IMG/VR virus record: IMGVR_UViG_3300044489_000211
Location: 1 to 33,710 of that record
Source: a virus
DNA: 33,710 bases
Strand: one strand, 5' to 3'
Each line of letters opens with the position of its first letter. Within the stretch, counting starts at the first letter, position 1. The notes under the pieces were generated by a model that did no database searches, was not told where the DNA came from, and saw nothing but the letters and a program-made list of their open reading frames with translations. Shown here piece by piece: positions 16,190-33,474 of this stretch. Both the position numbers and the translations under genes were made by a program.

Positions 16190-18454
16190 CTACGGCCTGG
16201 CAAGGGAGCCGGATCCATCGTCAATCTCCAGCCAGCACCGGCAGTTCCCCTCGCACTCCATGTCCCCTGGAAGTCGACCGCCGGTCGCCTCGAGCAGTTC
16301 GTCCATGCTGGCATACTCGCCTTCCGCATCGGGGCACTCGCTGCAATGGTTCGCCGAGTCGTCCAGCACCCAGGCCACCGCGCCGCCACCCTCCCGCTCG
16401 GCGTCCCGGGCAGCCCAGCCGGCGCCGTCCTGGATCGCCGTCCACATCTGCCCAGCGTAGGACTCCACCCGGGCCTGCAGGGCGGCCATGTAGCCGACAA
16501 TCCCTATAGCCCCAGCCGCCTTGACATCAGGATCCGACAGGGCTATCAGCAGGCGCCGCCGGGTGTCCGGGATGAGGGACGTGTCCAGGTACTCCTCGTT
16601 CTCGGCCAGGCGCCGGGCCAGGGCCATCAGGGAATCGGCCGATGGGGTTCGCCCGCCGAGCCCCAACTGCGAACCCTTGATGATGTTCTCCCGGCCGGCC
16701 GCAGCCAGGGCGGTCGCCAGGACAGACAGGGCTTCGTCGATCGTGTCCTCGGAACTCTCCGGGTCCTCCTCGATGTCGTCGGCGAGCTGGTTCAGCCACT
16801 CGCCGTAGATGAGCCCGAGCTGGGCCTGGTAGTTATTGGTCTCCCTTTCCCACGTGCGACGGCGCGCCGCGCCGCTGCCACGAAACCGGGACGCCGCGAA
16901 GGCTTCGTCTTCGGGCGTCTCACCTCCTTCGGCGACGTCAAGGGCGGGGTCGTTGTGACCCCCGTCCTTCGCCGGCTGTTCCTTGGGCCTCTGCAGGATC
17001 CCACCGGGGCCGAAGGGCACAGGCGGGGCAGGCTTCTTTCGGATGGTGCCCTTCTCCAGCTCGGGCAACTCCAGGAGCTGGCGCACTGTCCGCTCCAGGC
17101 CGGCGTCAATCTGAACGACATCAGCCTTCACGGCCTCGGCCACAGCACCGACCAGGGCAGCCACGTCCTGCTGGCCCAGCGGGGCGAACACAATCCTGGG
17201 ATAGTCGGTCAGGGCGCCGAAGGCCCCAGCGTTCAGCTTGAACAGCCGCTCGACCCCGAACCGGTTCAGGGTGTCAGCGATGAGGTCCAGCCAGCCGCTG
17301 ACCGCCTGGGCAAAGAAGTCCGTGGCGCGAACAGCCAGGGCCTGCGTCCCCCGCTCGGACAGCCCGAAGAAGATAAACTGCGCCAGAAGGACCTGGGCAA
17401 TCTGCTGGTTGTAGCGGGTGATGGCCTCGCCGAAGTCGATCATCCCCCGAGAGCCCGGCGACACCAGCTCGAACAGGGCGCCCTGCCCATCGGACGTCAT
17501 CTTGGGATAGGGGATGACGATGCCCATCTGCTCGTCAGTCCTGGTGTTCCGCACGATGTCCTGGGCCTTCGAGAAATCGCTGTTTTCCCCCTGGAGCTTG
17601 GTCCCCCGGCCGAGATACATGACAGGCATGCCCGTCCCCATGCGCTCGGCGGCGATCCCCTCAATTTCGCTGAAGTTCTTCGAGAAGTACCAGGGCAGGT
17701 AGGCCCCCCGGAGCGCCGACTTGCCCTGCGGGTTGTTCTTCAGGGCCGACGTCCGGTAGAGCAGCATCTTCTCGATCGGGATGAACACCGACTTTCCACC
17801 GGCCGGAGGGGTCTGGTTCATGCCCTGGACCCCGCCGTTCTCGTCGATCACCCACTCGGATCCCGGGGTCAGTGTGTCGGGCGATCGGTAGCCGAACTTC
17901 CGCCAGCCGATCCGCCCGTCGTCATACTTGCTCGCTGCATCCCGGTCGGGCCCGAGCCGCCGCTTGTAGACAATCTCAAACGGGGCGAACCCATACCAGG
18001 CCATCGTGATCGCCTGGCCCATGTGCTCGGTCCAGGAATGGCTCATGTCGTCAAGGCAGGACTCCAGGAACTCGGACGCCTCGACATCCTGGGGCTCCTC
18101 GCTGGCTGGCTCGACGTCGACCTTCGCCGACTTCGCCAGCATCTCGACCGCGAAGGTGGCCGCAGAAACCACCGGATGGTCCATCATCCGCCGGACAAGC
18201 TTGACCATCCTTGGAAGACTGTTCCAGTCGGCCAGGTAGTCCTCGGCGATCGCACCGCCGAACCGGTTGAGCCCGGTCACGCCCAGCTCGGTGTAGACCA
18301 CCCCCTTCGGGGCAGCCATGTTCTCAGCCTTCAGGGCCCGGGACACCGTGGCAGTCGACACCCCCAGGGACCGGGCCACCTCCGCCGGCGCAGCGCCCTC
18401 CGACACCAGGCGCCGGACAGTCTCGTAGTCAGTCGTTCGCTTTCGACCCGCCAT
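16190..18454 (-). CDS. Portal protein fused to N-terminal HTH and C-terminal MuF-like domain
   Basis: A 754-residue protein in three parts. Residues 8-45 form a helix-turn-helix of the resolvase/Hin type (DYETVRRLVSEGAAPAEVARSLGVSTATVSRAL). Residues about 47-470 match the Mu gp29-like (DUF935) portal: DWNSLPRMVKLVRRMMDHPVVSAA, FGFAPFEIVYK-like segment at 'YGFAPFEIVYKRR', and NNPQGKSALRGAYLPWYFSKNF. The last 200 residues end in HCSECPD (C704, C707) and NCRCWLE (C738, C740), the usual end of MuF-type minor head proteins. The portal is the dodecameric DNA gate; MuF proteins sit inside the head. The ATG at 18454 has AGGAGG with good spacing, so the HTH is probably translated. MAAPKGVV at 18319 would be the start of a normal portal. 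Confidence 0.85.
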   Translation of the reverse strand: MAGRKRTTDYETVRRLVSEGAAPAEVARSLGVSTATVSRALKAENMAAPKGVVYTELGVTGLNRFGGAIAEDYLADWNSLPRMVKLVRRMMDHPVVSAATFAVEMLAKSAKVDVEPASEEPQDVEASEFLESCLDDMSHSWTEHMGQAITMAWYGFAPFEIVYKRRLGPDRDAASKYDDGRIGWRKFGYRSPDTLTPGSEWVIDENGGVQGMNQTPPAGGKSVFIPIEKMLLYRTSALKNNPQGKSALRGAYLPWYFSKNFSEIEGIAAERMGTGMPVMYLGRGTKLQGENSDFSKAQDIVRNTRTDEQMGIVIPYPKMTSDGQGALFELVSPGSRGMIDFGEAITRYNQQIAQVLLAQFIFFGLSERGTQALAVRATDFFAQAVSGWLDLIADTLNRFGVERLFKLNAGAFGALTDYPRIVFAPLGQQDVAALVGAVAEAVKADVVQIDAGLERTVRQLLELPELEKGTIRKKPAPPVPFGPGGILQRPKEQPAKDGGHNDPALDVAEGGETPEDEAFAASRFRGSGAARRRTWERETNNYQAQLGLIYGEWLNQLADDIEEDPESSEDTIDEALSVLATALAAAGRENIIKGSQLGLGGRTPSADSLMALARRLAENEEYLDTSLIPDTRRRLLIALSDPDVKAAGAIGIVGYMAALQARVESYAGQMWTAIQDGAGWAARDAEREGGGAVAWVLDDSANHCSECPDAEGEYASMDELLEATGGRLPGDMECEGNCRCWLEIDDGSGSLARP

Positions 18455-31285: not shown

Positions 31286-31575
31286 AGCCGCTTCGCCCTC
31301 CGCATCAATGCCCCGTACTTCCGCTTGCCCAGCCAACCCTTTACCCATTCATGGAACTCCAATGGGTGTCTGTGAAAGAACGAGTGGCAGCCGTAGCACA
31401 GCGCAACCGCATTCTCCGGGTCGTGCCGAGTCTTCTTGATCGACCGGCTGAAGATGTGCGCCGCATGGAGCGCTTGAGACTTCTCGGGATACTGTTTACC
31501 GCACCGCCGGCACGTCCAGCTGTCCCGCGCCCGGATCAGGCTCGAGAACTCGGCGTCAGCCTTATCGCGCCTCAT
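31282..31575 (-). CDS. HNH endonuclease-like protein
   Basis: A 97-residue protein with the zinc-anchored HNH order: CRRC (22-25), LHAAHIFSRS (H37, H40), HDPENAVALCYGCH (N55, C60, C63, H64) and FHRH. It resembles short HNH proteins of the NinG/Rap or restriction type that cut or process DNA. Before terminase in some phages, HNH proteins assist DNA packaging; here it is in the replication block beside the initiator. The ATG overlaps the initiator stop as ATGA; a longer reading to 31635 is inside the initiator gene. Whether it nicks origins, recombination intermediates or foreign DNA cannot be told. Confidence 0.78.
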   Translation of the reverse strand: MRRDKADAEFSSLIRARDSWTCRRCGKQYPEKSQALHAAHIFSRSIKKTRHDPENAVALCYGCHSFFHRHPLEFHEWVKGWLGKRKYGALMRRAKRL

Positions 31576-32237
31576 TGCAGGCTCCCGACACCAACCTTGC
31601 CGCCGGAGGTCCTGACGAAATGCGCGCCCTCGCACCTCATTCCAAGAGCAGCCCGGGAGATCCAGAACCCGCAGATTTCGCAGAGGACCGTGTCGGTCTG
31701 TTTGGGCGGCGAGGAGGCCGCCTTTTGGTTCTCTCCGTCTTGCTTCTCTGAGTCTTGGGTAACTGAGTCTTGGATTCTGTCCGCCTGTCGGACTACTGAC
31801 AGTCCGGACGTCCGGACTACTGGAGTCCGCACGTGCGGACTGCTGGAGTCCACCTGTCGGACTACTGCAGCAACCGGCCCATTCTCCAGTAGTCCGCCTG
31901 TCGGACTACTGGAGGGTGCCTCGTCTTGGGGCGCCACATCTGGCGGTCTTATCAGTCTGTATTGGGTGCTCTGCCCGAACCGCTTGATCCGGACGAGGAA
32001 TCCGCCAACCTCTAGAGCCCGAAGGGCGGCGGCAATCCTCTCACGCCTGAGGCCGGTTCTCTTCTCCATGTCCTCGTAGCCCGGCCAGGCGATGTGTCGG
32101 TCCTTGTTCGTGCGATAGCGCAGGTAGCAGAAGACCGCGAATGCATCCACGCCGAGCTCGGCCATGCGCTCGATCACCAACTCCGGGATCGGAGTGAGAA
32201 ACCCCCATTCGTCCACTAGCCTCTCGAACTCGCTCAT
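31572..32237 (-). CDS. Winged-helix replication initiator-like protein
   Basis: A 221-residue protein. Residues about 30-97 form a winged helix of the HTH_36 type (AVFCYLRYRTNKDRHIAWPGYEDMEKRTGLRRERIAAALRALE...FLVRIKR), common in phage initiators of replication related to lambda O and to DnaD-like proteins. A Ser/Pro/Arg-rich linker (about 100-183) follows, and a C-terminal CEIC...C motif (C186, C189, C202) that may bind zinc. The linker DNA carries palindromic repeats suggestive of an origin. The start ATG (32237) with GGAGG upstream overlaps the previous stop as TGATG. Alternative: a transcription regulator. Confidence 0.68.
   Translation of the reverse strand: MSEFERLVDEWGFLTPIPELVIERMAELGVDAFAVFCYLRYRTNKDRHIAWPGYEDMEKRTGLRRERIAAALRALEVGGFLVRIKRFGQSTQYRLIRPPDVAPQDEAPSSSPTGGLLENGPVAAVVRQVDSSSPHVRTPVVRTSGLSVVRQADRIQDSVTQDSEKQDGENQKAASSPPKQTDTVLCEICGFWISRAALGMRCEGAHFVRTSGGKVGVGSLQ
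31779..31912. repeat. Palindromic iteron-like repeats (putative replication origin)
   Basis: Five units with GTCC...GGAC cores begin (g of GTCC) at 31779, 31802, 31825, 31848 and 31892, so steps are 23, 23, 23 and 44. Units 2 (AGTCCGGACGTCCGGACT, 31801-31818) and 3 (AGTCCGCACGTGCGGACT, 31824-31841) are perfect 18-base palindromes; unit 5 has 11-base perfect arms CCAGTAGTCCG and CGGACTACTGG around CCTGT. Most are followed by ACTG. Since 23 and 44 are not multiples of three, the repeats fall in different frames of the coding sequence, so they are not a protein repeat. AT-richer sequence (31722-31780) adjoins the left side. Confidence 0.72.
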
Positions 32238-32560
32238 CACGCCTCCAGGGGCTCGTCAATCACTTCGGCTACGTCATCTAGTTCATGGTGCGGCCCCTCA
32301 TACTCAAGGCCGTGATTTGCCCCCTCGCATATGCAGTGGCAGAACGTCATTGGGTCCGCCTTCTTGCATCCGACGCTGCACTGCCCACTCTCGCTTTTGG
32401 TATGCTCCTGCTTGGTCAGTTCACAAAGCCATCCATCGAGCAGGATGTAAGCCCTGGTGTGCTGCTTGTTGGCCCACCCGCGGAAGCCATCGTGTGCGCC
32501 GATGAACCCCTCAAGCCGGCGAACCTTGCCGCCGTGGTCCTGCCCAATCCACCTTTCCAT
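32237..32560 (-). CDS. Cys-rich small protein, unknown
   Basis: A 107-residue protein starting at ATG 32560, which overlaps the ParB stop as TGATG; the reading to 32740 is within the ParB gene and is dropped. The C-terminal half has GQCSVGCKK and FCHCICEGANHG, a CxCxC...NHG cluster seen in small phage proteins of unknown function, likely zinc-binding. The first half is basic and aromatic (MERWIGQDHGGKVRRLEGFIGAHDGFRGW). It lies between ParB and the initiator, so it may be part of the replication or maintenance block. Confidence 0.6.
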   Translation of the reverse strand: MERWIGQDHGGKVRRLEGFIGAHDGFRGWANKQHTRAYILLDGWLCELTKQEHTKSESGQCSVGCKKADPMTFCHCICEGANHGLEYEGPHHELDDVAEVIDEPLEA

Positions 32561-33474
32561 CACAACCTGTCGATAACGTTGTCTAGCTGCCTGAGGATGT
32601 TGGCTGTCAACTTGCGAAGGCTCTTGAGCACGATCTTTCCGCCAGCGCGGTCGTCCTGGCTCCGGGCAATGATCGACACCAGCGCGCTGACCGACTTCAG
32701 CCCCTCCTCGGCCAGCACGACGCGCGGGTCCTTGATCCACTGGAACAGGGCGCGGCCCGTGACCTCCCGGGCTGCCGCCTTCGGCTTGGGCTTGTGGGCG
32801 GGCAGGCTGTCGGCCGTGCGCAGGATGGCGTCGGCCCTCTGAGAGAGAACACGCTGGACGGCCTTGTCGCCGCCGTAGTCGTGGGCGCGCTTGACGACCT
32901 CGGCCACTTTGCGGGTCTGACGCGTGGAGAGTTCTTCTTCGGCGGCCTTCTTCAGAACCCTAGCCGCTAGTGCGGCGTCGCCCGCGGTGGCGGCCCTGGC
33001 CTGCCTAACGTGGTCCACGCCGAGTTCTCGCGCGAGAACTTCGGTTGCCTTCTTGATGGGGGCATCGAGCATCGATAAGTAGTCAGAGACTGGCCCCTCG
33101 CCCCAGCCAAGCCGCTTCGCCAGCGCCGCCTGTGTGCAGCCCGTCTCGTCCAAGATGGCCCGCAGCGCCTTGGCGATGTCGATGGCCGCCATGTTCTCGC
33201 GGATGACGTTCTCGATGAGCGCCTGGGTCAGCAATTTGTCGTCCGCCACGTCGGCGACGATGGCCTCGACTTCCTTGAGGCCCGCCGCCTTGGCCGCCAT
33301 CACGCGGCGGTGGCCGTAGACCAGGGTGTAGCCGTGGCCGTTCTTGCGAACCTTGACCGGGCAGACCTGGCCGACTTCCTTCAGGCTCTCAGTCAACTCC
33401 TCCAACTTCTCCGGCGACATCTGTTGCCGGACGCGACGATCCATTCCTCGGATTTCTGTCAGCGCGATCTTCAT
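32560..33474 (-). CDS. ParB-like CTPase / DNA-binding protein
   Basis: A 304-residue protein with the N-terminal ParB/sulfiredoxin-like domain. YGHRRVMAAKAAG (GHRR at 54-57) matches the nucleotide-contacting GERR motif and LIENVIRENM (88-94) the ENLQRE motif that couple CTP binding to DNA-site loading. A helix-turn-helix (CTQAALAKRLGWGEGPVSDYLSML, about 113-136) follows, then a helical, Ala-rich tail. Chromosomal and plasmid ParB proteins spread from parS; phages use relatives for plasmid-like partition or as regulators. No ParA is in the window. The ATG follows GGAGGCGGG. No parS site was recognised. Confidence 0.85.
   Translation of the reverse strand: MKIALTEIRGMDRRVRQQMSPEKLEELTESLKEVGQVCPVKVRKNGHGYTLVYGHRRVMAAKAAGLKEVEAIVADVADDKLLTQALIENVIRENMAAIDIAKALRAILDETGCTQAALAKRLGWGEGPVSDYLSMLDAPIKKATEVLARELGVDHVRQARAATAGDAALAARVLKKAAEEELSTRQTRKVAEVVKRAHDYGGDKAVQRVLSQRADAILRTADSLPAHKPKPKAAAREVTGRALFQWIKDPRVVLAEEGLKSVSALVSIIARSQDDRAGGKIVLKSLRKLTANILRQLDNVIDRL

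Follow-up and report, generated by a model that had tools for sequence, protein, structure and literature searches.

A probable lambda-type replication origin of phased palindromes within the initiator gene of a metagenomic phage

Bacteriophage lambda has its replication origin midway along gene O, where O binds four iterons that are imperfect inverted repeats of 19 bp, and where an AT-rich tract is crucial for unwinding (PMC7466680). In lambda and in the Stx phages P27 and 933W, the initiator gene holds its own origin, with 19-bp iterons in four or six copies and an AT-rich tract on one side of them (PMC7466680). Both traits recur in the stretch of DNA analysed here, a virus record of 33,710 nucleotides that belongs to a metagenome collection (hereafter the window). 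A related proposal has been made for the RepA-type prophage replicons of the mycobacteriophages Miko and Rachaly: their origin would reside inside repA or immediately before it, following the model of lambda O (PMC7157519). The authors of that study identified no repeats, unlike the array of the window, and the likeness lies in the proposed position of the origin, in or near the initiator gene.

The window departs from lambda in the sequence of its iterons and in its protein, which carries an HTH_36 domain rather than Phage_rep_O. The C-terminal part differs as well, consisting of a DnaA_N domain in two relatives (L027 and L031) and of a CxxC peptide in the window, and no P-type partner was identified. 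The initiators of the Streptomyces phages SV1 (gp38) and SoJo (gp39), both of the HTH_36/PHROG 270 kind, share with the window protein a winged helix followed by a linker that contains a palindromic array, with arms of the GGCCG/GACCG type in these two phages and GTCCG in the window. In SoJo, a helicase loader gene follows the initiator gene. Origin annotation is absent from the SV1 and SoJo records, and several other named-phage initiators that were examined have no recognisable copies of the palindrome. As judged from its sequence, the window locus is a well-supported further case of the known lambda-type in-gene origin.

A preliminary description of the window had reported five GTCC...GGAC units at steps of 23, 23, 23 and 44 bp, and we recovered the same positions and spacing, with GTCC-N7/8-GGAC matches starting at 31779, 31802, 31825, 31848 and 31892 (Table 1). 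Its placement of the array in the linker-coding region of the gene also held, the units lying directly 3′ of the HTH_36 domain, as did its reading of two units (iterons 3 and 4) as perfect 18-bp palindromes. The centres of these two units are 6 bp long, and those of the other three 5 bp. The longest inverted repeat of the array, iteron 1 (13 + 13 bp around 5 bp), received no special mention in that description, which had postulated a missing sixth unit near 31871; what is found there is a 44-bp gap, identical in L027 and L031. Elsewhere in the 33.7 kb, the GTCC-N7/8-GGAC pattern has two loose matches only, at 16565 and 17346. Synonymous-codon shuffles of the initiator gene (n = 5000) produced a maximum of three sites, compared with the five observed, and Markov-simulated windows (n = 60) contained no more than two sites per 150 bp.

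Table 1. Features of the putative origin and its initiator gene, in window coordinates
Feature	Position	Strand	Description
Initiator-like gene	31572-32240	minus	222 aa; HTH_36 winged helix at the N terminus, then a low-complexity linker and a short CxxC peptide at the C terminus
Winged-helix DNA-binding domain (modelled stretch, residues 1-106)	31923-32240	minus	HTH_36 and AlphaFold2 model
Iteron 1 (outermost, in gene sense)	31884-31914		13-bp arms, 5-bp centre, core GTCCGACAGGCGGAC; 44 bp to next
Iteron 2	31848-31862		gene-sense sequence GTCCGACAGGTGGAC; a single arm mismatch, shared by L027 and L031
Iteron 3	31824-31841		perfect 18-bp palindrome, 6-bp centre
Iteron 4	31801-31818		perfect 18-bp palindrome, 6-bp centre
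Iteron 5	31779-31793		adjoins AT-rich tract
Putative DNA unwinding element	31734-31778		53% AT; 15-nt direct repeats CCAAGACTCAGTTAC / CAAGACTCAGAGAAG on coding strand

The AT-richer flank that had been noted beside the array is located towards the 3′ end of the gene, where the putative unwinding element contains 53% AT compared with 35% window-wide; 45-mers as AT-rich as this make up only 0.18% of the total. A similar tract of 15-nt repeats is present in L027 and L031. Because a 15-nt period amounts to whole codons, selection on the peptide is possible for the AT tract, though for this element alone. Just past the tract lies a GC-rich hairpin (31704-31723), and C-tract hairpins resembling it occur in L032, L038, L048, L089 and L106. 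As a candidate third origin module this hairpin was rejected, given that family-wide enrichment was absent (p ~0.1).

The protein encoded at the array contains a winged helix, as had been proposed. An HTH_36 domain is recognised at residues 28-77 with 28.8 bits, above the Pfam cut-off, and residues 1-106 are folded by AlphaFold2 as a winged helix with a pLDDT of 83. Over the winged helix the protein matches PHROG 270, annotated as 'replication initiation protein', with an E value of 8e-9, and the O-like families PHROG 345 and 391 are also matched; replication protein O appears among the viral fold matches of the model. HTH_36 is the sole Pfam model above its cut-off, with no match to Phage_rep_O (PF04492), and a Foldseek search of the PDB returned generic winged helices only, none with E <0.001. 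By these matches, the window protein is a phage initiator of the HTH_36 type (PHROG 270). The whole protein, used as query, gave no matches in named phages or in a first viral scan, and its relatives surfaced only through pattern searches and domain-only searches.

The two relatives, L027 and L031, have 55-60% protein identity and carry the array at the matching place, with a first gap of exactly 44 bp in all three loci. At codons for conserved amino acids, synonymous change among the window, L027 and L031 amounts to 10-14% in the array and linker versus 49-61% in the winged helix, whereas amino-acid replacement is commoner in the linker than in the winged helix. The DNA repeat is therefore kept while the peptide varies, which is the outcome that the preliminary description had proposed to look for in related phages. 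Moreover, the 6-bp rather than 5-bp centre in two window units puts part of the linker in a different reading frame from that of L027 (SSSPHVRTPVVRTSGLSVVRQ versus SSSPASGPQLSAPRTPVVRQ), with the palindromes intact. Function at the DNA level thus overrides peptide constraint at this position, in that the frame of the linker changes and the palindromes stay.

These relatives also bear on the possibility that the palindromes are parS centromere sites for a ParB protein. Such sites are frequently palindromic, and a ParB gene (32560-33474) is adjacent to the array in the window, just upstream of the initiator gene. However, L027 and L031 (20- and 45-kb records) keep the array in the absence of ParB, which is encoded in 3 of the 20 records with an array. 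It is the winged-helix gene, and not ParB, that the array accompanies, and we rejected the parS explanation as extremely improbable. The presence of ParB in the window possibly reflects a phage-plasmid lifestyle.

The distribution of the array was surveyed with a gene-independent pattern, consisting of two GTCCG-N5-CGGAC palindromes 3-33 bp apart, which returned at least 120 viral and at least 119 genome-contig stretches. Among the matches listed, to which earlier matches were added to give 124 viral array loci, the array resides inside a winged-helix ORF in at least 83 of the 124 viral loci and in 1 of 119 genome-contig loci, the winged helix being recognised by a profile built from, and iterated on, the same candidate sequences. 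Some of the remaining viral loci are O-like by PHROG (L034, E 1e-34; L087), and 83 is for this reason a lower bound. Because the profile was iterated on its own candidates, matches to independent libraries constitute firmer evidence: 43 of 67 array-bearing proteins match Pfam HTH_36, and 53 of the 67 fall in a PHROG family annotated 'replication initiation O-like'. One of the array-bearing proteins, L053, is by its Phage_rep_O match (E 3e-26) a genuine member of the lambda-O family, and its GTCCG array is followed by a very AT-rich stretch.

At six viral GTCCG loci (L096, L040, L068, L083, L109 and L143), the ORFs that overlap the array have no match to the winged-helix profile or, in those scanned, to PHROG families; these loci are possibly diverged initiators or other elements. 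In many Planctomycetes, Myxococcales and Lamprocystis contigs (L151-L269), the palindrome pair lies outside ORFs with a winged helix and recurs several times in a single MAG, as a different, dispersed repeat.

Across 66 non-redundant loci, 261 palindromes occupy all three reading frames (122/73/66), and their spacings are distributed as 74/60/59 modulo 3, independent of codons. This extends to the family the earlier argument that the repeats change reading frame and do not form a protein repeat. Centre-to-centre spacings peak at 21-23 bp (96 cases), 32-35 bp (25) and 43-46 bp (19), with 4 and 5 cases between the peaks, which have their maxima at 22, 33-35 and 44-45 bp and correspond to two, three and four helical turns. 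The phase concentration is 0.756, a value that 5000 uniform draws never approached (highest 0.344).

Given that each unit is able to fold in RNA, and that slippage can expand tandem arrays, the palindromes could be viewed as mRNA hairpins or as a slippage-made protein repeat with no function in DNA. Codon-independent spacing argues against both, RNA offers no reason for helical phasing, and synonymous sites are frozen while the linker peptide changes. Furthermore, the arms are invariant rather than covarying, with 247 GTCCG-armed palindromes and 43 others, for the most part readings of the same array between units, although the pattern with which the loci were fetched dictated the arms of two units in each. 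We consider this explanation very unlikely, and it was rejected on the strength of the invariant arms and codon-independent spacings.

The AT-rich tract is likewise a property of the family. The 30 bp after the last palindrome exceed the gene in AT content by 19.2 +/- 1.1 points, as against 2.4 points for the 30 bp upstream, and the most AT-rich stretch is downstream of the array in 60 of 63 loci. On the coding strand this tract is A-rich (37% versus 20%) and G-poor, and short direct repeats such as TAACCGTCAAGAACCGTCA are frequent in it; significant tandem repeats were detected in the tracts of 19 of 66 loci, including the window (period 15).

These features help to weigh an explanation in which the palindromes are operators for autoregulation, the winged-helix protein governing transcription of the operon that encodes it, with no origin involved. 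Palindromic operators are, as is generally known, frequent targets of winged-helix proteins, and a protein bound within the gene could stop elongation. In nearly all loci, however, the array starts behind the DNA-binding winged helix, inside the gene and not at a promoter, and a weak search found no promoter-like site near the array. A one-sided AT-rich tract and phasing by two, three and four turns are features of origins, and the array-bearing proteins belong to replication-initiator families. Operators alone are thus an unlikely account of the array, and autoregulation could operate alongside an origin role.

The lambda ori-in-O arrangement suggested in the preliminary description agrees with the array, its conservation at the DNA level, its phasing, the AT tract and the initiator families, from which we infer initiator binding, melting, helicase loading and origin use. 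The window combines a winged-helix initiator encoded by the same gene, at least four inverted-repeat iterons about two turns apart and an adjoining AT-rich tract. It is highly probable that 31734-31914 is a phage replication origin inside its own initiator gene, at which initiator dimers would bind the palindromes, the AT tract would open and helicase would be loaded. Pointing the other way, AT content in the tract reaches only 53%, and the palindrome is absent from some initiators of the wider family. GC skew, put forward earlier as a check, has no sign switch at the locus, on a contig that may be a fragment.

In the mechanism that we propose for this origin, winged-helix dimers would bind each GTCCG-N5/6-CGGAC palindrome. 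Sites spaced by 22-23 bp (two turns) and 44 bp (four turns) would align the dimers along a single helix face, which would make stacking into an O-some-like complex possible. This complex would then strain and open the AT-rich tract immediately downstream, which carries the 15-nt repeats and would be the site for loading the replicative helicase. In L027 and L031, a C-terminal DnaA_N domain (E 4e-8 and 9e-9, respectively) may recruit host DnaB. The equivalent domain of DnaA has a role in DnaB recruitment, and none of the three records (window, L027 and L031) yielded a DnaB gene, suggesting that host DnaB is used.

The window protein lacks DnaA_N, and a hidden, frameshifted copy was discarded as an explanation when tblastn found no trace of one. 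With neither this domain nor a DnaB gene in the record, the helicase-loading step is without a candidate in the window, where recruitment might proceed through another partner or the gene might be degraded. The place of DnaA_N is taken by a short peptide (31575-31700, minus strand) containing CEIC, followed later by C and H; the replacement looks as if it arose by deletion or recombination beside an HNH gene.

To our knowledge, the replication origins of most phages are not known. The array offers origin tests a precise target that can be mutated by synonymous changes. Judging by the family-wide pattern, origin, initiator and their pairing may be predictable from sequence for many metagenomic phages. 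We think it rather likely that phased GTCCG-N5-CGGAC palindromes with a one-sided AT-rich or A-rich repeat tract represent an origin code common to initiator genes with a winged helix in many phage lineages, at least one true lambda-O relative among them, in which case origins could be deduced straight from the sequences of phages and prophages. No description of a GTCCG iteron shared by diverse initiators, with its phasing and one-sided AT tract, was found in the literature covered, which excluded most subscription journals, and an iteron of this kind common to diverse phages seems to be undescribed.

The genes surrounding the initiator show a further resemblance in content. NeuB- and aminotransferase-like genes lie downstream of the initiator in L031, and a large share of the window phage (20855-30997) is occupied by a run of genes of sugar-nucleotide and amino-sugar type, among which an epimerase was recognised by Pfam, and aminotransferase-, NeuB- and cytidylyltransferase-like genes by eye.
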